From Arthrobacter sp. SLBN-112 (lineage in GTDB: Bacteria; Actinomycetota; Actinomycetes; Actinomycetales; Micrococcaceae), in contig NZ_JAUSXY010000001.1 of NCBI RefSeq assembly GCF_030944625.1, positions 124,001-188,000 on the forward strand: a DNA stretch of 64,000 bases, written 5' to 3'. The notes under the pieces were generated by a model. The model made no database searches, was not told the origin of the DNA, and saw only the letters and a program-made list of their open reading frames with translations. Both the position numbers and the translations under genes were made by a program. Positions 13,754-60,904 of this stretch are shown here, piece by piece (the first letter of the stretch is position 1; every line of letters starts with the position of its first letter).

Positions 13754-14377
13754 ATGGACTTCGGCGGCGCAGACAGCTGGGGGGCGGCCCTCTATTTCTG
13801 GGTCATCCCGCTGGTGGTCGGTGACGCCATTTTCCCCCCCATTCCGTCTGAGATGGTGGTGATTACCGGGGGTGCGCTGTCCGCCGATGGCCGGGCCAAC
13901 GTGTTCCTGGTATTTTTGCTCGCAGCGGTGGCATCCTGGCTGGGCGACATGGTGGTCTTCCACCTGTTCCGCCGACGGCTGAGCCACGTGCTGGACCGTT
14001 GGAAATGGGGCCGCCGGGTCCACGCCGGCATCCATGCGGCGCTGGCCAAAGCCGGGCGCTCGTCCACCTACGGCACCATCATCGGGGCCCGGTTCATCCC
14101 AGGGGGCCGGCTTGCCACATCGGCAGCGTCCGGGATCGCAAACGTCTCCGTGCGCGGGTTCGGCCTCTGCGCCGGGCTGGGAGCAGTCCTTTGGGCAAGC
14201 TGGCTGGTGGGGCTGGGATACTTCACCGGTTCAACCACCAAGCTGCCGTTTTGGGCCAGCTCGCTGATCGGCGTGGCGGTGGGCCTGGTGATCGGCGCCG
14301 TCGTGGGGCTCATCGTCACCCGCCGGCGCGGCGACCGGTCCCCGGTGGAGGACGAACCCATTCCGGACGCAGGCTAG
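13754..14377 (+). CDS. DedA/VTT family membrane protein
   Basis: Membrane protein of about 207 residues of the DedA (SNARE-associated, VTT) superfamily, now regarded as lipid scramblase or lipid-carrier transporters. YFWVIPLVVGDAIFPPIPSEMVVITGGAL is the signature re-entrant region, followed by FLVFLLAAVASWLGDMVVFHLFR, then GARFIPGGRLATSAASGI with the conserved Arg-x-Ile-Pro-Gly motif, and two C-terminal membrane helices. The start is uncertain: no strong ribosome site, with GTG codons upstream. The 3' end overlaps the convergent small gene by 4 bases. Confidence 0.88.
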   Translation: MDFGGADSWGAALYFWVIPLVVGDAIFPPIPSEMVVITGGALSADGRANVFLVFLLAAVASWLGDMVVFHLFRRRLSHVLDRWKWGRRVHAGIHAALAKAGRSSTYGTIIGARFIPGGRLATSAASGIANVSVRGFGLCAGLGAVLWASWLVGLGYFTGSTTKLPFWASSLIGVAVGLVIGAVVGLIVTRRRGDRSPVEDEPIPDAG

Positions 14378-14679
14378 ACGGGCAGCCACTTGCCGCGGCT
14401 GCGCCGCAGCACGCTGAGCGAACCTGTCAGCGCAACGCGTTCGACGGCGTCGCGCATCATGGCCGCGGACTCCACCGCCTGCCGGTTCTCGCCGCTGTAT
14501 TCGCTCGCCTCCACGAGGAACCGAAGGTTAAGCTGCGGCACCCCGCCGGCAAGCTGCAGCTGGTGCGCTTCCACGTGGTGGCGGGTGCCCAGCGCCTCCA
14601 CGGCCGCGTCCATGACGGACTCGGGCGGATTCCCCGGACGCAGCCCGGTGATCTTGAGGCGGGTCTGGAAGGAAGGCAT
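14374..14679 (-). CDS. hypothetical protein, 101 residues
   Basis: Small soluble protein. It begins MPSFQTRLKITGLRPGNPPESVMDAAVEAL and ends AMMRDAVERVALTGSLSVLRRSRGKWLPV, a pattern of strand-helix-strand-helix that recalls a small ferredoxin-like fold. GGAGGG lies just before the ATG at 14677-14679. It is downstream of ppc on the same strand but separated from it by a repeat array with a strong hairpin, so it is probably expressed from its own promoter. Family not recognised. Confidence 0.7.
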   Translation of the reverse strand: MPSFQTRLKITGLRPGNPPESVMDAAVEALGTRHHVEAHQLQLAGGVPQLNLRFLVEASEYSGENRQAVESAAMMRDAVERVALTGSLSVLRRSRGKWLPV

Positions 14680-14696
14680 GCCCTCCACCCTATCCA

Positions 14697-14896
14697 AACC
14701 CCCGCTCGCATCCGACGGTTTAAACGCAACCCCCGCTCACATCCGGCACTTTAAGCAGCAACCCCCGCTCACTCTCTTCGGAAGAGTGAGCGGGGGTTGC
14801 TGTTAGAACTGCGAAAAGTGAGCGCGCGTCGCAGGAAAAGCCGCCAAAAGTGAGCGCGCGTCGCAGGAAAAGCCGCCAAAGGTGAGCGGGCGTTTC
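14697..14896. repeat. mirrored 32-base repeat array 1
   Basis: Three forward units of about ACCCCCGCTCAC start at 14698, 14729 and 14761, then four inverted units GTGAGCGSGSGT start at 14786, 14818, 14850 and 14882. Inverted units are exactly 32 bases apart; the last forward and first inverted starts are 25 apart with a 13-base centre. Two complete 32-base units (14814-14845 and 14846-14877) are identical. The array lies directly downstream of ppc, whose last codons touch the last unit. Confidence 0.9.
14756..14802. terminator. 20-bp perfect hairpin at the centre of repeat array 1
   Basis: The arms at 14756-14775 and 14783-14802 are exact complements around a 7-base loop. It lies downstream of the ppc stop on the minus strand and would stop readthrough into the small gene at 14679. 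Confidence 0.65.
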
Positions 14897-17703
14897 TAGC
14901 CGGTGTTACGGAGGCCTGCGGCAACGCCGTTGACGGTGATGAGCATGGCCCGCTGGAGGCGCTCGTCGATCTCGGCTCCGCTGATTTCCGCCTCGGTCCG
15001 GATGCGGCGCATCAGTTCCACCTGCAGGTAGCTGATGGGATCCAGGTACTGGTCGCGGATCTCCAGGGAACGTTTCAGCGTGGGCTGGGCGTCCAGGAGC
15101 AGGTTCTCCCCGGTGAGCCTGCGGACCTCGGCCACCGTGAGCTCGTACTCCTCCCGGATGGTGCGGAACAGGTGGTGCAGTTCCTCCGGCACCAGGGTGG
15201 ACACGTAGTAGCCGGCGATGTCCATGTCCGTCTTTGCGAGGGTCATCTCGACGTTGGACAGCACGGACCGGAAGAAGTTCCAGTGGTCCATCATCTCCAC
15301 CAGCTGGGCGGAGTGTCCCGCCTCCCGGGCGGCCTTGAGCCCGGAGCCCACGCCGAACCAGCCGGGCACGATCTGCCGCGACTGCGTCCAGCCGAACACC
15401 CACGGGATGGCCCGCAGTCCGCCGAGCCCTGCACCCGAATCCGGACGCTTGGACGGGCGGGAGCCGATGTTGAGCGAGCCGAGCTGCTCCACCGGGGTGG
15501 ACGCCATGAAGTACGCGGGCAGGTCCGGGTGGTCGATCAGCTTCCGGTACCGGTCAAACGCGGCATCCGAGATGGCTTCCATGACGTGTCCGTAACGCTC
15601 CCGCTGGTCCTCCGAGGTCCGGGGGTTGCGGTGCAGGGCCGAACCCTGCAGCACCGCGGCCAGCGAGAGCTCCAGGTTCTCCCGGGCAAGCTCCGGCAGC
15701 GAGTACTTGTCCGAGATGACCTCGCCCTGCTCCGTGAACTTGATCTCGCCTTCCAGGACGCCGTTGGGCTGGGCCAGGATGGCGTCATACGTGGGCCCGC
15801 CGCCGCGGCCCACGGAACCGCCGCGGCCGTGGAACAGGCGGACGCGCACGCCGTGCTTGGCGGCGATATCGCGCAGCTTCCGCTGGGTCTTGTGGATTTC
15901 CCACTGGCTGGTCATCACGCCGGATTCCTTATTCGAATCCGAGTAGCCCAGCATCACTTCCTGGACGTCGCCGCGCAGCCGCACCAGTTCCCGGTAGGAG
16001 GGATCGGACAGCAGCTGGTCGACGATCTCGGCTGAGGCCCGCAGTTCCTCCACGGTCTCCAGCAGCGGCGCGAACCCGAGCTTGGCGTAGGGCTTGTCAC
16101 CGAAGAGGTTCACCAATCCGGCTTCGCGGGCCAGCACCGCGGCGGCGAGGACGTCGTCGGCGCCGCGGGTCATGGAGATGATGTAGGTTTCGATGACGTC
16201 CGGGCCGTACATGCGCAGGGCCCGGCGGATCTCGCGGAAGACGTCGTACGTGCCGTCCGCGGCGCCGTCGAGCTTGATCGGGTGGCCGGAGAGCGGACGG
16301 CGGGACGCCAGCTCGGAGCCCAGCACCTCGAAGCGTTCCTCGCGGCTGAGCTCCGCGTAGCGGAGGCCGGGGCCGCCGATCCGGTCCATCAGCTGCCCGA
16401 CGGCGTCGTGGTGGTGGTCGGCGTGTTCGCGGATGTCCAGGGTGGCCAGGTGGAGTCCGAAGGAGGCGATGGCGCGGCGGACCCGGGCCAGGGAGCCGTC
16501 CGCGGCCAGGGCCGCGGAGTGGTTCCGCAGCGAGAGTTCCAGCAGGTGCAGGTCTGCCATGAGTTCATCGGTAGCGTTGTAGTCACGCCCGTGCTCGTGG
16601 TTTGAGTTCACCGCCACCCGCTTGCCGGTGTTGATGAGCTTGGCCTTGATGCAGGTCAGCTTCAGCCGGTAGGGCTCCTGCGCATTCAGTTCCAGGACCC
16701 GCTTGTCCAGGCCGGGCAGGTTCTTCAGGTCCGTGTCGATTGACTCGAGCAGCGCCTGGTCGGCACCGGCCAGGGCCGTGGAGTTGGACAGGACGGAGAT
16801 CAGTTCATCGATCATGCCGATGCTGATCCGGATGGCGCTCTGGTTCTGGATCTGCAGGATCTCCCGGGTCACGGCCGCGGTGACGTTCGGGTTGCCGTCG
16901 CGGTCACCGCCAATCCAGGAACCGAACCGGATGGGCGCGTCCTTGGCCGCCAGGCTGACGCCGTGCTCGCCCAGGAGGTCGGCGAGTTCGGACAGCATGT
17001 GCGGCATGGCGTCAGTGAGGATGCCGCCCAGGTAGTAGATGGCGTTGCGGGCCTCATCCACGGGCGTGGGCCGGACCTGCCGCAGTTCGTCGGTCTGCCA
17101 CATCTGGTCGATGATCTCGGCCAGCTGCCGGTCCTGCCGGCGCCGCGCCGTGGACCCCTCTGCGGTGGACCGGGACAGGACGTCGGAGATCTTGCGGATC
17201 TTGTCCAGGACCGAACGGCGGGAAGCTTCGGTGGGGTGCGCGGTGAAGATCGGGCGGACGTCCAGCCCGTTGACTACCTCCTGCAGGACGTCCGGGCCCG
17301 CCTGCTCGGCGATGTCAGCCACGGTCTTGGCCAGCCAGCCGTCCTTTTCCGCCCGATTGCGCAGGCCGCGGACCCGGTGGACCTGCTCAGCGGCGTTCGC
17401 CAGATGGAAATAGAACGCGAAGGCACGCACCAGATCGGTTGCCTGCTCGATGGGCAGGGAGCCGAGCAGCTCGCGGACCTGGGCGACGACGTCGTGCGCG
17501 CTCCAAGGCCCGGTGGCGTCCGCGCCGCCACGTGCGGCTTCCTTGGATTCTTTGGTCAGCAGCCGGACCTGTTCCACGAGGTTCAGGAGTTCGGGCCCGT
17601 GCTGGCGGACCAGGGACTCTCCCAGCAGGGTGGAAACGCGGCGGACGTCCGCGCGCAGTTCGGAGGCGAGATCGGATTCGGGAGGTGTTGCAGTGTGAGC
17701 CAT
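14896..17703 (-). CDS. ppc: phosphoenolpyruvate carboxylase
   Basis: Cytosolic anaplerotic enzyme of 935 residues, full length, fixing bicarbonate onto PEP to give oxaloacetate. The first catalytic motif [12 protein letters not shown] has its His at residue 156; [16 protein letters not shown] and [19 protein letters not shown] carry the other active-site residues; the C-terminus ends [12 protein letters not shown] as is usual for the family, where it forms part of the active site and the allosteric aspartate site. The ATG at 17703 is supported by the start of homology. The array of 32-base repeats begins at its stop. Together with aceA/aceB and poxB in this window it belongs to the PEP-pyruvate-oxaloacetate node. 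Confidence 0.97.
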
Positions 17704-37471: not shown

Positions 37472-38468
37472 CGCTTCCTCCGCTGCCACGGGCCCCTCCC
37501 GCCGGCTCGTGCTGACGTCGGCTCTCGGCGTCGGACTTGCAGCCTGCCTGGCGCCTGCCCTCAGTGCCTGTACTGCAGGTGACCGGCCGGACCTGCTGAC
37601 GGTGGCCGGCGGCGAACCGGGCGGCTTCTACCTTGAGTTCTCTACGCTCCTGGCGGCTGCGCTGGAGCGCCACGGGGTGGCACGCCATGCAAACGCCGTG
37701 CCCACCGGCGGAAGCCTGGACAATATTGCCGAGCTGCGGGCGGGACGCGCCGCCTTTGCCGTGGCCCTGGCGGATGCTGCAGGCCAGGCCGCGGATGCCG
37801 ACGCAGCCGGGATTGCCGCGGTCGGCAAGGTCTACGAAAACTACGTCCACTGCGTGGTGCGCAAGGACAGCGGCATCAGGGACCTCACCGGGCTCGCGGG
37901 GCGGCGGGTTGCCGTGGGACAGCCCGGGTCGGGCACATCGCTGACCACTCCGCGACTCCTCGAGGCGGCCGGCCTGGGCACCTCGGGAGATGCCGCTGCG
38001 CCCGCAGCCGGAACCGCCGCCGTCGAAAATCTGGGTTTGAATGACGGCATTGCCGCCCTCAAGGCGGGCACCGTCGATGCCTTGTTCTGGTCCGGGGGCG
38101 TTCCGACGGCGGCCATCGCCGCGGCGCAGCAGGAGGTGGCATTGGGGCTGCTGGACCTGTCAGGCCTGCTGCCGGAACTGCGCCGGCGGTACGGGGGCAT
38201 GTACGACCGCGTCCTGATTCCGGAAGGAAGCTACCCGGGTATTCCGGCGGTGTGGACGGTGGGCGCTCCAAACCTGCTCCTGTGCCGAAGGGACCTGGAC
38301 GACGCCACTGTGGAGCGGACTGTGCAACTGCTGGTGCACAACGCCGGTGAGCTCATACCGCAGTCCAGCCTGGGCGTGCAGTTCCTCAGTGCGGAAAGCC
38401 TCATCAATACCGCCGGCGTCCCGCTGCACCCCGCAGCGGCCGACGCCTACCGGGCCCTGCACGGCTGA
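37455..38468 (+). CDS. TAXI family TRAP-type solute-binding lipoprotein
   Basis: Extracytoplasmic binding protein of 337 residues. The signal region has SRRLVLT at 15-21, close to a twin-arginine motif, and a lipobox ending ALSAC with Cys39, so it is probably a Tat-exported lipoprotein. The TAXI fold begins LTVAGGEPGGFYLEFSTLLAAALERHG and continues TGGSLDNIAELRAGRAAFAVALADAA, GRRVAVGQPGSGTSLTTPRLLEAAG, and VDALFWSGGVPTAAI. Normally TAXI proteins feed a TRAP permease (DctQM fusion); none is in this window. Overlap with the kinase gene by 17 bases suggests it presents ligand to the kinase, as proposed for TctC-like and TAXI proteins fused or linked to sensors. GTG start; a second GTG at 37464 is possible. 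Confidence 0.88.
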   Translation: MATVPSASSAATGPSRRLVLTSALGVGLAACLAPALSACTAGDRPDLLTVAGGEPGGFYLEFSTLLAAALERHGVARHANAVPTGGSLDNIAELRAGRAAFAVALADAAGQAADADAAGIAAVGKVYENYVHCVVRKDSGIRDLTGLAGRRVAVGQPGSGTSLTTPRLLEAAGLGTSGDAAAPAAGTAAVENLGLNDGIAALKAGTVDALFWSGGVPTAAIAAAQQEVALGLLDLSGLLPELRRRYGGMYDRVLIPEGSYPGIPAVWTVGAPNLLLCRRDLDDATVERTVQLLVHNAGELIPQSSLGVQFLSAESLINTAGVPLHPAAADAYRALHG

Positions 38469-38474
38469 CCACTA

Positions 38475-38577
38475 ACGCCCGCTCACCTCCTGCACCAAAC
38501 CACCAAACGCCCGCTCACCTCCTGGACCGAATCCAGCAACGCCCCATCACTTTCGTCAGGAAAGTGAGCGCGGGTTG
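38475..38577. repeat. mirrored 32-base repeat array 2
   Basis: Forward units start at 38475, 38507 and 38539 (ACGCCCGCTCAC twice, then ACGCCCCATCAC), exactly 32 bases apart. One inverted unit GTGAGCGCGGGT starts at 38564, 25 bases after the last forward unit, with the 13-base centre tttcgtcaggaaa. The array begins seven bases after the TAXI stop codon and probably acts as its terminator. Confidence 0.88.
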
Positions 38578-42423: not shown

Positions 42424-44076
42424 ATGAACAGCTTCACTGACAGTTTTACGATCAACGGCATTACTTTGACCGCGCAGCCGATTTGCCGGCAGGACGAGGT
42501 TCTTACTCCGGATGCTCTCGAGTTCGTTGCTCGTCTGCACCGGGCCACCGCCGAGCGGCGGCAGGAGCTGCTCCAGGCACGGCGCACACGGCGGGCTGAC
42601 ATCGCCGCCGGCGCCGACCCCCGATTCCTCCGGGAGACCGAGGAAATCCGCAACGATCCGTCCTGGCGGGTCGCTCCCCCGGCCCCCGGCCTGGAGGATC
42701 GCCGGGTGGAGATCACGGGCCCGGTGGACAAGAAGATGACCATCAACGCACTGAACTCGGGCGCCAAGGTGTGGCTGGCTGACATGGAGGATTCCTCCAC
42801 CCCAACGTGGCGGAACGTCATCAAGGGCCAGCTGAACCTCACCGACGCCCTGGAACGCCGGATCGACTTCACGTCCGAAGAGGGCAAGGAATACAAGCTG
42901 CGCCCGGCCGGCGAGCTGCCCACCATCGTGGTCCGGCCCCGCGGCTGGCACCTGCCGGAAAAGCACATGCTCATCGACGGCACGCCCATCGCCGGCGGCA
43001 TCGTGGACTTCGGCCTGTTCTTCTTCCACAACGCCCGCCGCCTGCTGGCCCAGGGCAAGGGTCCGTACTTCTACCTGCCCAAGATCGAGAACCACCTCGA
43101 AGCCAGGCTGTGGAACGACATCTTCATCCTGGCCCAGGACCTGCTCGGCATCCCGCAGGGCACCATCCGCGCCACCGTGCTGATTGAAACCATCACAGCC
43201 GCTTTCGAAATGGAGGAGATCCTTTACGAACTGCGGGACCACGCCTCAGGCCTGAACGCCGGCCGCTGGGACTACATCTTCTCCCTGATCAAGAACTTCC
43301 GCACCCGCGGCCCCCGCTTCGTCCTCCCGGACCGCGGCCAGGTCACCATGACCCAGCCCTTCATGCGCGCCTACACCGAACAGCTGGTCCGGGCCTGCCA
43401 CAAGCGCGGTGCCATGGCCATCGGCGGCATGGCCGCAGCGGTCCCCAACCGCAAGGACCCGGAAGCCAACGCCAACGCACTGGAGAAGGTCCGCGCCGAC
43501 AAGACCCGCGAGGCCAACGACGGCTTCGACGGTTCCTGGGTGGCCCACCCCGACCTGGTCCCCGTGTGCCAGGAAGTGTTCGACGGCGTCCTGGGCGCCA
43601 AGCCCAACCAGCTGGACCGGCTCCGCGAGGACGTCACCCCGGACGACCGCGCCCTGATCGACGTGGCCGCCACCACCGGCACCATCACCGAACAGGGCAT
43701 CCGGAACAACATCGAAGTGGGCATCCGCTACATCGAGTCCTGGCTCCGCGGCAACGGCGCCGTTGCCATCCACAACCTCATGGAAGACGCCGCCACCGCC
43801 GAGATCTCCCGGTCCCAGCTGTGGCAGTGGATTTACGCCCGGGCCATCACCGACCACGGCGAGATCATCAGCCACGAATGGATCGAGGAACTCCTGGACG
43901 AGGAATACGCCAGGCTGGAACGCTTCGACGGCGACCGGTTCGAGGACGCCCGCGATATTTTCGAGGAAGTCACGCTCAGCCGTGAGTTCCCGTCCTTCCT
44001 CACCCTCCCCGCCTACGCCAGCTACCTCACCGAGGCCCGCGAGAAGGCCACCGTCGAGGAGTTGGCAGCCGCCTGA
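42424..44076 (+). CDS. aceB: malate synthase A
   Basis: Second glyoxylate-bypass enzyme, 550 residues, condensing glyoxylate with acetyl-CoA to malate. It is isoform A by length and by motifs: [69 protein letters not shown], and [34 protein letters not shown] precedes the ATG at 42424. The gap of 220 bases to aceA contains a terminator, so a separate promoter is likely in 42311-42410. Repeat array 3 follows about 95 bases after its stop. Confidence 0.97.
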
Positions 44077-44171
44077 CCCATCGGGAACTTCCGTCCGCCG
44101 GGCCGGCACGCCCTCCGCAACAGGCCCCCCGAAATCCGGGGCGCCGGCCCGGCGACGGAGCACCACCCCAC

Positions 44172-44304
44172 ACGCCCGCTCATCTGATGCGGGAAAACCC
44201 AAAACGCCCGCTCACTTTCCTAAAGAAAGTGAGCGGGCGTCCTCGTAATTCCTGCAAAAAGTGAGCGGGCGTCCCCGTAATTCCTGCGATAAGTGAGCGG
44301 GGGT
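44172..44304. repeat. mirrored 32-base repeat array 3
   Basis: Forward units ACGCCCGCTCAY start at 44172 and 44204; inverted units GTGAGCGGGCGT (last one GTGAGCGGGGGT) start at 44229, 44261 and 44293. All same-orientation units are 32 bases apart and the two orientations are 25 apart, with the 13-base centre tttcctaaagaaa. The separators cctcgtaattcctgcaaaaa and ccccgtaattcctgcgataa are near-identical. The array lies between convergent aceB and an MFS gene. Confidence 0.9.
44204..44240. terminator. 16-bp perfect hairpin at the centre of repeat array 3
   Basis: acgcccgctcactttc (44204-44219), loop ctaaa, and the exact complement (44225-44240). It is placed to terminate both aceB and the convergent MFS gene. 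Confidence 0.7.
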
Positions 44305-44343: not shown

Positions 44344-45537
44344 TTAGCGGCCCTTCGGCACCTTCCGGACGGACAGGGTGGTGCTGGCAAAGAAGGTCAG
44401 CACGGAGGCCAGGATGACCAGCAGGGCCGGCGTCCACGAGCCGGCCGTGTCGTGGACGAAGCCCACCAGCGGCGGGGCCACGGCGGCGAGGCAGTAGCCA
44501 AGGCCCTGGACGGTGGCGGACATCCGGCCGGCGGAGGCCTGGTCGCGGGCCAGCTTGATGATGGCGATGAAGATCAGGGTGATGCCGCCGCCCTGGGCAA
44601 TTCCGCCGGATGTGGACCACAGCCACCACAGCTGCGGCAGGACCAGGAGCCCCACGGGAACGGCAAGCCACAACGTCCCCAAGGTGACCGCCACCGCCGT
44701 CGTACTCATGTATTTGGCGGCAAAGGGAACGCCGAGGCCGCCCACGATGGCCAGGATCTGGAAGATCGAGGACGCGGCGCCGGCCTGGGCGGCATTCATC
44801 CCCAGTTCGTCGTGGAGGTAGCTGGGCAGCCATGCCGTGACGCCGTAGTAGGAGAATGCCTGGCCGCCGAATCCGGCCGTGAGCCCGAACGTGGTCCAGC
44901 CGGAACCGGCCGCCCGTGCCAGGGGTTGGTCCCCGCCGTCGTCCCCCTCGGGCAGGAATGCTGTCCGCGGCCCCACGGCCAGGACCCAGACCACCACGGC
45001 GGCGACGGCCAGGACGGCGACAGCGGCCAGTGCCAGCCTCCACCCCGTCACGACCGCCAGCGGGGCCATGGCCACCGAGGTCAGGAACGACCCGATATTC
45101 AACGCTGCCGTGTAGATCCCCATGGCGGTCCCCTGCCGGCGCGGCGCGAAATCGCGGCGGATGATCAGGGGCACCGCAATGTTGCCCACCGTGATGGCCA
45201 CCCCGATCAGCACTGTGCCGGCCACCACCAGTACCGGGCCGCCGGCGGAGCGGACCAGCACTCCGGCCAGCACCCCCAGGATGGTCAGCGTGACGGCGAA
45301 CTCCGCCCCGAACCTCCGCGCCGCCAGGGAGGCCAGCGGAGCAGCGAGCGAGAAGCAGAGCACGGGGATGCTGGTCAGCAAGCCGAGCAGGACGGGCGAG
45401 AAGTGCAGTTCTGCCTGCATGAGGTCCACGAGGGGCGCGACCGCCACGAAGGGACCCCGAAGGTTCAGGGCCAGCAGGCCGATGCAGGCCAGCAGGATCC
45501 AGCTCTTGGGCATGCGGGAAAGGACGCCGCCGCTCAC
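44344..45537 (-). CDS. MFS transporter, CynX/NimT-like
   Basis: Twelve-helix major facilitator of about 397 residues. LLALNLRGPFVAVAPLVDLMQAELHFSP is the opening typical of the CynX/NimT (cyanate or nitroimidazole) group; GNIAVPLIIRRDFAPRRQGTAMGIYTAALNIGSFL is the mid signature, and WLPSYLHDELGMNAAQAGAASSIFQ begins the second half. The start is uncertain: GTG at 45537 or ATG at 45513; no clear ribosome site, and a longer reading would overlap the divergent dehydrogenase gene. The substrate is not predictable. Confidence 0.85.
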   Translation of the reverse strand: MSGGVLSRMPKSWILLACIGLLALNLRGPFVAVAPLVDLMQAELHFSPVLLGLLTSIPVLCFSLAAPLASLAARRFGAEFAVTLTILGVLAGVLVRSAGGPVLVVAGTVLIGVAITVGNIAVPLIIRRDFAPRRQGTAMGIYTAALNIGSFLTSVAMAPLAVVTGWRLALAAVAVLAVAAVVVWVLAVGPRTAFLPEGDDGGDQPLARAAGSGWTTFGLTAGFGGQAFSYYGVTAWLPSYLHDELGMNAAQAGAASSIFQILAIVGGLGVPFAAKYMSTTAVAVTLGTLWLAVPVGLLVLPQLWWLWSTSGGIAQGGGITLIFIAIIKLARDQASAGRMSATVQGLGYCLAAVAPPLVGFVHDTAGSWTPALLVILASVLTFFASTTLSVRKVPKGR

Positions 45538-60286: not shown

Positions 60287-60371
60287 CGGAGAATGGGGGA
60301 TTTGAACCCCCGAGGGCGTTAACCCAACACGCGTTCCAGGCGTGCGCCATAGGCCGCTAGGCGAATTCTCC
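60287..60371 (-). tRNA. tRNA-Ser (anticodon GGA)
   Basis: The minus strand folds as a class II tRNA: acceptor GGAGAAT pairs with ATTCTCC, the anticodon loop CTGGAAC has anticodon GGA flanked by a CACGC/GCGTG stem, a long variable arm (GTTGGGTTAACGCCC) follows, and the T arm has GGGGGTTCAAATCCCCC. The discriminator base is G and CCA is not encoded. It reads UCC and UCU serine codons. Confidence 0.95.
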
Positions 60372-60758
60372 AACTGCTTCTGAATCAAAAGCAGGTACCA
60401 GATTACCTGAACTTTTCCGCATCGCCCAATTGGCCCGGGCAGGGGCTGTTTTCGAACGTGCCCGGCAGGACCCTCAGGGCCCGCCAGGCCCCGTCCCTGA
60501 CCCGGCAATGGACGCCCCCAACGCGCCCATTCCGTGTTGCTGCACCGTTGAGCTGCCGGGTCCGGTTCGTTCAGCCAGGCCACGCAGCTCACAATCTTGA
60601 GATTGCCCCAATCGGTGTATATACAAATGATCGTGGGTGGCCGGTGGATAAGCAATGGAATTCCATGACCTGACCGACGTTTTCCGCTCCGCGCCACTGC
60701 TGTCACAGTGGCGGATGGCCGATTCGAGTCGCGCCGTATGTTCAGGTAAAGTGTTTGA
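60372..60758. other. intergenic region with no supported gene
   Basis: This 387-base stretch lies between divergent tRNA-Ser and SRP RNA genes. I see no coding frame with family features. It holds two short palindromes, CAATCT-tg-AGATTG (60592-60605) and ATGGAATTCCAT (60655-60666), in a locally AT-rich part, and TAAAGT (60747-60752) about seven bases before the SRP RNA, which may be its -10 box. Confidence 0.6.
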
Positions 60759-60850
60759 CGGCCCCTCATGTGGCGTCATCCTGTTGAACTCCCCCAGGAC
60801 CGGAAGGTAGCAAGGGTAAATGGGCTCTGGCGGGTGCATGGGGGGTCTTT
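60759..60850 (+). ncRNA. ffs: signal recognition particle RNA (small bacterial type)
   Basis: The conserved SRP domain IV core is present: CTGTTGAACT, then CCCAGGACCGGAAGGTAGCAAGGGT, with the GGAAGG-type tetraloop and the AGCA internal loop bound by Ffh. The 5' end GGCCCCTCATG pairs with the 3' end CATGGGGGGTC, closing a single long hairpin of about 92 bases. Ends are estimated. The gene lies just upstream of dnaX, a common actinobacterial order. Confidence 0.93.
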
Positions 60851-60904
60851 ACTATTCCCCCACAGGGCGGCAGGATGTCAGCCCGGATTGGTAGGGTTTT
60901 CTCT

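Follow-up and report, generated by a model that had tools for sequence, protein, structure and literature searches.

Mirrored 32-bp repeat arrays behind gene ends in Arthrobacter and a nuclease gene flanked by the same repeats

Three mirrored repeat arrays with 32-bp spacing lie in the 64-kb stretch of Arthrobacter sp. SLBN-112 (G000) DNA analysed here (the window). They are probably gene-less, dispersed members of a repeat family whose partner is a nuclease gene flanked by two arrays, the whole resembling a REP/RAYT system.

Results

Three mirrored arrays in the window

Every unit of the three arrays is found where the original prediction had placed it. Same-strand 12-mers (≤ 2 mismatches) exactly 32 bp apart form nine pairs in the window, against a mean of 0.01 and a maximum of 1 in 100 dinucleotide shuffles, and minus/plus pairs 25 bp apart occur three times versus zero in the shuffles. 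The 12-mer by itself, at ≤ 2 mismatches, is not rare (23 in the window; shuffle mean 16, maximum 26); the signal in the window is the spacing rather than the frequency of the 12-mer. Genome-wide, the 12-mer is in excess as predicted, AGTGAGCGGGCGT with ≤ 1 mismatch occurring 59 times versus once for the reversed control. Some of the geometry is looser than had been claimed. The exact 32-base period holds for the inverted units of array 1, but the first step of that array is 31 (14698 to 14729); the third unit of array 2 is ACGCCCCATCAC, a different dialect; and the 25-base centre step, present in all three window arrays, is elsewhere the commonest class of centre but not universal. A spacing of 32 bp corresponds to three helical turns, consistent with its being fixed.

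The arrays lie just past gene ends, as predicted: array 1 is 2 bp from a stop codon, array 2 is 6 bp past its gene, and array 3 is 95 and 39 bp from two convergent stops. The gene reading into array 1 encodes a putative phosphoenolpyruvate carboxylase (ppc), so named from its sequence. Gene calls are from a custom-built gene finder, with approximate start positions. The features are:

14374..14688, minus strand: gene beyond array 1, same strand as ppc, without a Pfam match
14698..14740, plus strand: array 1, ACGC..TCAC-oriented units at 14698 and 14729 (step 31); the third such unit sits in the centre hairpin
14761..14797, no strand: array 1 centre, units 14761-14772 and 14786-14797, gap 13; the RNA folds into a 21-bp stem with a 5-nt loop
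14818..14893, minus strand: array 1, inverted units at 14818, 14850 and 14882; last base 2 bp from the ppc stop
14896..17703, minus strand: ppc-like gene, reads into array 1
37509..38468, plus strand: NMT1-like substrate-binding protein gene, stops 6 bp ahead of array 2
38475..38518, plus strand: array 2, units at 38475 and 38507
38539..38575, no strand: array 2 centre, units 38539-38550 (dialect CCCA) and 38564-38575; hairpin imperfect
42424..44076, plus strand: malate synthase gene, convergent with the MFS gene
44172..44183, plus strand: array 3, outer unit
44204..44240, no strand: array 3 centre hairpin, units 44204-44215 and 44229-44240; 16-bp stem, 5-nt loop
44261..44304, minus strand: array 3, inverted units at 44261 and 44293
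44344..45537, minus strand: MFS transporter gene, stop 39 bp from array 3

Rfam at gathering thresholds gave no match at the window arrays, and the relaxed matches there, for the most part microRNA models, were far under their cut-offs. Elsewhere in the window, Rfam identifies a small SRP RNA (60757-60853) and a tRNA (60287-60371). The interval from the malate synthase stop to array 3 contains a GC-rich palindromic sequence, ACTTCCGTCCGCCGGGCCGGCACGCCC...GCCGGCCCGGCGACGGAG (approximately 44085-44160); this sequence is kept in most relatives compared, has no Rfam match at gathering thresholds and is possibly a structured 3'UTR element.

A repeat family widespread in the genus, with genome-specific dialects

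The SLBN-112 genome has 17 arrays, counted by hand from genome-wide matches. Several are one-sided; those holding both kinds of unit have the ACGC..TCAC units on the left and the inverted units on the right every time. The region 3' of ppc was compared in 30 genomes, that of SLBN-112 among them, with classes assigned partly by eye: ACGCCCGCTCAC arrays are found in 3, ACGCTCTCTCAC or close forms in 9, ACGCTCCCTCAC in 1 and one long hairpin (D) in 11, while 6 have none of these forms. This comparison gives a general unit, ACGC-NNNN-TCAC-N-T, in which the four middle bases are a genome-specific ‘dialect’. The unit ACGCNNNNTCACNT by itself is no palindrome and has no GTAG tag.

A strict pattern of two general units 32 bp apart without mismatch is present in 176 of 206 genus genomes (reversed controls, 0). 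At family level 34 of 325 genomes have it, spread over 2 of 32 genera, and at order level 8 of 297, spread over 2 of 94 genera. In the samples searched, the family extends outside the genus to only one sister genus. Of the 206 genus genomes, 49 contain the CCGC form (≤ 1 mismatch), and one genome classed as array-free (G029) has one CCGC-pattern match. A GTDB scan with the CCGC form found at least 120 stretches; 79 of the 80 listed are from Arthrobacter, Pseudarthrobacter or Paenarthrobacter and the remaining one is from a Rubrivivax MAG. Viral contigs contain the CCGC pair 0 times and the general pair once, no sign of viral carriage or a phage origin. Judged from titles and abstract starts among the literature matches listed, no description of these arrays was found, nor anything joining DUF559 genes (see below) with repeats.

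The tetramer is mostly coherent within a genome: TCTC accounts for 46 of 49 units in G066 and for 23 of 24 in G165, and CCGG for 52 of 82 in G059, whereas G102 and G002 each have a mixture of two related tetramers. Across eight genomes with other dialects, 75-100% of the units have T13. At positions 22-25, cases consisting of A/T alone are AAAA or TTTT more often than expected (24 of 54, 44% versus 12.5%). In 170 arrays from relatives, transitions are minus-to-plus in 100 cases and plus-to-minus in 11; of 468 same-strand steps, 428 are exactly 32. Among 363 pairs of neighbouring units, 80 have spacers that differ at ≥ 9 of 20 positions (mean 55%), while the tetramers of these 80 differ at 10% and the fixed letters at 6% of positions; the fixed letters are partly selected by the search pattern, the tetramer is free of that selection. 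The 12-mers are conserved while the spacers diverge, which places the constraint on unit and spacing.

Position relative to genes

The units are polar, and the ACGC side usually faces a stop codon. Outer ACGC ends point toward a stop in 145 cases versus a start in 55, with a median stop gap of 16 nt; this count is from 212 arrays, leaving out 59 near locus ends or without a flanking gene, 15 with distant genes and 4 with overlap. Eight further genomes give 63 versus 21, with a median gap of 17. Mirrored arrays lie between convergent genes in 36 cases, codirectional in 30 and divergent in 2; intergenic regions of ≥ 30 bp in the same loci number 128, 308 and 123 respectively. Orthologous gene ends carry arrays repeatedly among relatives.

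Array centres and the malate synthase/MFS site

In 105 centres from relatives and SLBN-112, the gap is 13 (step 25) in 36 and 4-6 in 26, the others being longer or different; in SLBN-112 itself, steps of 36-37 also occur and one array is divided by a separate hairpin. Inner units are identical in 37 of 40 centres with a gap of 8-15. In the 31 non-redundant hairpins (of 67), three positions outside the motif are Watson-Crick paired in 19, 22 and 24, compared with null means of 10.7, 9.8 and 17.2 (maxima 19, 19 and 23). Gap-13 centres are true palindromes. At gaps of 3-6, inner units are identical in 14 of 27, some of them related copies, and pairing is not constrained.

The arrays that relatives have at the malate synthase/MFS site can be aligned with array 3 but bear CCGC, CCGA, TCTC or GCGC. 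The other dialect is found on both hairpin arms and in the outer units, and the spacers are recognisably similar in several; judging from these alignments, the dialect has changed in place within homologous arrays. In five relatives (G011, G017, G025, G029 and G161; L334-L361) a long hairpin, GCGAGATGGCATTT...AAATGCCATCTCGC, replaces the array; a partner gene for this hairpin was not found in 1.85 Mb of fetched DNA. A simple scan for U-tract terminators gave none at the centres of arrays 1 and 2. The position of the arrays and their hairpin centres fit a putative terminator role.

A nuclease gene between arrays

Clustering of array-adjacent genes identified a DUF559 gene that lies between two arrays in several species. 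The protein (approximately 318 residues) combines an AbiEi-like DNA-binding region (residues ~3-199) with a Vsr/I-Bth0305I-like nuclease domain at its C-terminus (~204-307). Its predicted structure, a better model that superseded a first one (pLDDT 55.7), has the nuclease fold with the invariant E, D, H and D residues as well as an AbiEi-like fold. The Pfam AbiEi_4 match is under its cut-off, and Foldseek alone on the model gave no match at E ≤ 0.001.

The ortholog search covered 41 chosen genomes, 20 array-bearing and 21 without a strict-pattern match. An ortholog (≥ 62%) is present in 19 of the 20 versus 1 of the 21 (G226), counts that are not independent because the genomes are related to each other. 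Arrays in the genome's own dialect lie on both sides of 18 of the 19 orthologs; in G149 only the left side has one. Within the fetched stretch, the neighbours are ino1 and fhs in 15, fhs only in 3 and neither in 1, and most array-flanked copies therefore represent one orthologous site. G201 has many arrays, yet no ortholog above 54% was found. In SLBN-112, a frame break near residue 225 disrupts the gene (C1:2163260-2164211, between arrays 2163089-2163198 and 2164281-2164390), and the copy in G127 is in two pieces. Arrays are many in both genomes despite the broken copies, so the gene is not needed for array persistence.

Flanks were read in 11 of the 21 genomes without a strict-pattern match. 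The G226 ortholog (62%), in a genome with no ACGC..TCAC array, has, by eye, a different 32-spaced motif at its flanks. Ten array-less genomes have a 52-57% homolog flanked by D hairpins, 8 of them at the ino1-fhs site; one in-frame stop was counted in 6 of the 10. D hairpins (L322-L331 and the genus list) have a near-fixed 51-52 nt between the searched ends, with variable, self-complementary cores, and strict matches to D occur in 32 of 204 genus genomes.

A perfect DnaA box (TGTGGATAA) is located 46-65 nt upstream of 44 of 50 nuclease-family genes (L362-L411) versus 2 of 459 controls, which may link expression of the family to the initiation of replication. Links between protein residues and dialect are weak, and none of the residues follows dialect clearly. 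T112 is a lead only; sets of related genomes give equally many such columns. D48, TCTC-specific among 18 sequences, was rejected as the dialect residue, as it is also found in the CCGC genome G000.

Many paralogs have hairpins of their own

Twenty paralogs were selected from those found in six array-bearing genomes, and none has ACGC..TCAC arrays within 700 bp. Their left and right flanks are alike (E ≤ 1e-8) in 12 of 20, against 0 of 250 control genes, the other 8 being below threshold; under the same test a single gene passes among 20 that are array-flanked, and a single one among 10 that are D-flanked, where the repeats are short or divergent. A hairpin finder, run without controls, locates hairpins on at least one side of all 20 paralogs and on both sides of 13. 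The flanking hairpin sequences differ between paralog groups. Within the 1.85 Mb of fetched DNA (non-random), hairpins D, H52 and H38a are also found away from family genes (40, 3 and 7 times), four other types exclusively beside family genes, and the malate-synthase-site hairpin exclusively away from them.

Discussion

In the system that we regard as probable, the AbiEi-like part of the nuclease would read the unit in the dialect of its genome and the nuclease domain would nick or cut at units or hairpin centres. Repair after cutting could then spread and homogenise the units. Repeats would be retained at places where they do no harm or are of use, just past stop codons, and there the central hairpin might act as a bidirectional terminator. 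A more far-reaching version is possible, and we offer it tentatively: a second, HUH-independent repeat-enzyme system in which several AbiEi-Vsr nucleases, timed by the DnaA box, would each read, nick and maintain their own gene-end palindrome. Very-short-patch-like conversion would rewrite the 12-mers in place, such that a change in protein specificity would rewrite the dialect of the whole genome while the spacers stay.

The arrays could instead serve the host as terminators or insulators, a sequence-specific protein (the AbiEi-like one or another) forming a polar roadblock behind genes on the 32-bp-spaced units, comparable to the use that phages make of stoperators, and the hairpin serving as terminator; nuclease activity would then be incidental and the arrays round the gene a means of autoregulation. 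The polarity and closeness to stops, the orientation of genes around mirrored arrays relative to intergenic regions in general, the recurrence at orthologous gene ends and the pairing of gap-13 centres past the motif all argue for this, as do the gap 4-6 centres, which hold spacing without holding pairing. By itself, however, it leaves unexplained that every paralog group is flanked by a hairpin of its own; moreover the U-tract scan was negative at the centres of arrays 1 and 2 and one-sided arrays lack the hairpin, and we consider this reading unlikely, if far from negligible. Bracketing of the nuclease gene might also be a coincidence of gene ends at one conserved site, since any gene tends to adjoin gene-end repeats. 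The neighbourhood of ino1 and fhs in 15 of the 19 array-flanked copies, and of fhs in three more, is as expected from this, but no control gene reached the flank similarity of the 12 paralogs, D hairpins are found at 0 of 441 control genes, and G149 (arrays), G080 and G191 (D hairpins) retain their repeats without ino1 or fhs in the fetched stretch, which makes coincidence improbable.

An element acting in RNA, with unpaired C-rich sense units to which Rho or a sequence-specific RNA-binding protein would bind ahead of the hairpin, would agree with the weaker folding of sense 44-mers than of their complements (mean -6.2 versus -10.8 kcal/mol) and with the unremarkable degree of structure in the sense part of array 1 (z 0.36). 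A spacing of exactly 32 nt between units, with the spacer sequence free to vary, lacks an obvious reason in RNA, however, and genome-coherent dialects would be odd for Rho. Watson-Crick covariation is absent within units: 149 non-redundant 32-mers have no excess beyond that expected from homopolymer runs. Nor does the spacer form an RNA hairpin with the unit, as the tetramer pairs with it no better than with exchanged spacers. We therefore judge an RNA-level role very improbable. That the arrays are REP/BIME elements mobilised by a RAYT (Y1 HUH) transposase, as originally suggested, is hardly credible. The REP-like half of that suggestion holds as an analogy (dispersed gene-end repeats, palindromic centres, a gene bracketed by its own repeats), but the likeness to RAYT mobilisation is in layout only: Y1_Tnp (PF01797) was not found in G000 and is present in 1 of 121 genus genomes, which at the sensitivity of the Pfam model contradicts the RAYT half.

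The probable repeat-nuclease system shares features with several known ones. DNA uptake sequences have dialects, and their inverted pairs can occur at gene ends, as here; they are present in thousands of copies, largely within genes, whereas the present units are far fewer, arrayed and at gene ends. As in REP/REPIN-RAYT systems, dispersed extragenic palindromic repeats accompany one enzyme gene flanked by its own repeat family, and the position of that gene mostly at one site recalls RAYTs, described in the accessible text of the sources as single-copy and vertically inherited (PMC3733652, PMC8049555). The enzyme, in contrast, is AbiEi-like plus Vsr-like and not a Y1 HUH transposase; the repeat unit, a 12-mer whose middle bases are specific to each genome, forms 32-bp arrays, and no hairpin with a GTAG or CGTC tag was recognised as the unit. 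CGTC-tagged REPs, in the portion of PMC3733652 available, lack a dedicated transposase and are named from Proteobacteria, Chlorobi, Bacteroidetes, Spirochaetes and Thermotogae; they are similar in being palindromic repeats without a known Y1-type partner and, as far as that text goes, differ in sequence and phyla. Stoperators of cluster A mycobacteriophages are, in the accessible text, short asymmetric intergenic sites oriented with transcription, with motifs that vary between related genomes (PMC6550527, PMC9283540). The Arthrobacter units are likewise asymmetric, oriented and variable by genome, a likeness at the level of the sites; they are chromosomal, arrayed at 32 bp and have hairpin centres. 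Compared with Vsr and the EDxHD homing endonuclease I-Bth0305I (PDB 3r3p, 1cw0), the predicted nuclease is fused to an AbiEi-like region and has no intron or coding target. It differs from the AbiEi antitoxin of the AbiE type IV toxin-antitoxin system (PDB 6y8q) in its sub-threshold AbiEi_4 match and its nuclease domain; the neighbouring genes identified for most copies are ino1 and fhs.

Repeats of the REP type occur widely, and repeat families for which no enzyme is known are presented as an open question in the text available of PMC3733652. The REP/RAYT layout is now seen with another, unrelated enzyme superfamily. Since genome-specific dialects can be paired with protein sequences, a recognition code, homogenisation and the terminator role are directly testable. 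The association also suggests a role for some genes annotated merely as DUF559 or ‘very-short-patch-repair endonuclease’. Nuclease-family matches number up to 13 per genome (G065), with 11 in G012:C1 and 1 to 3 in others.
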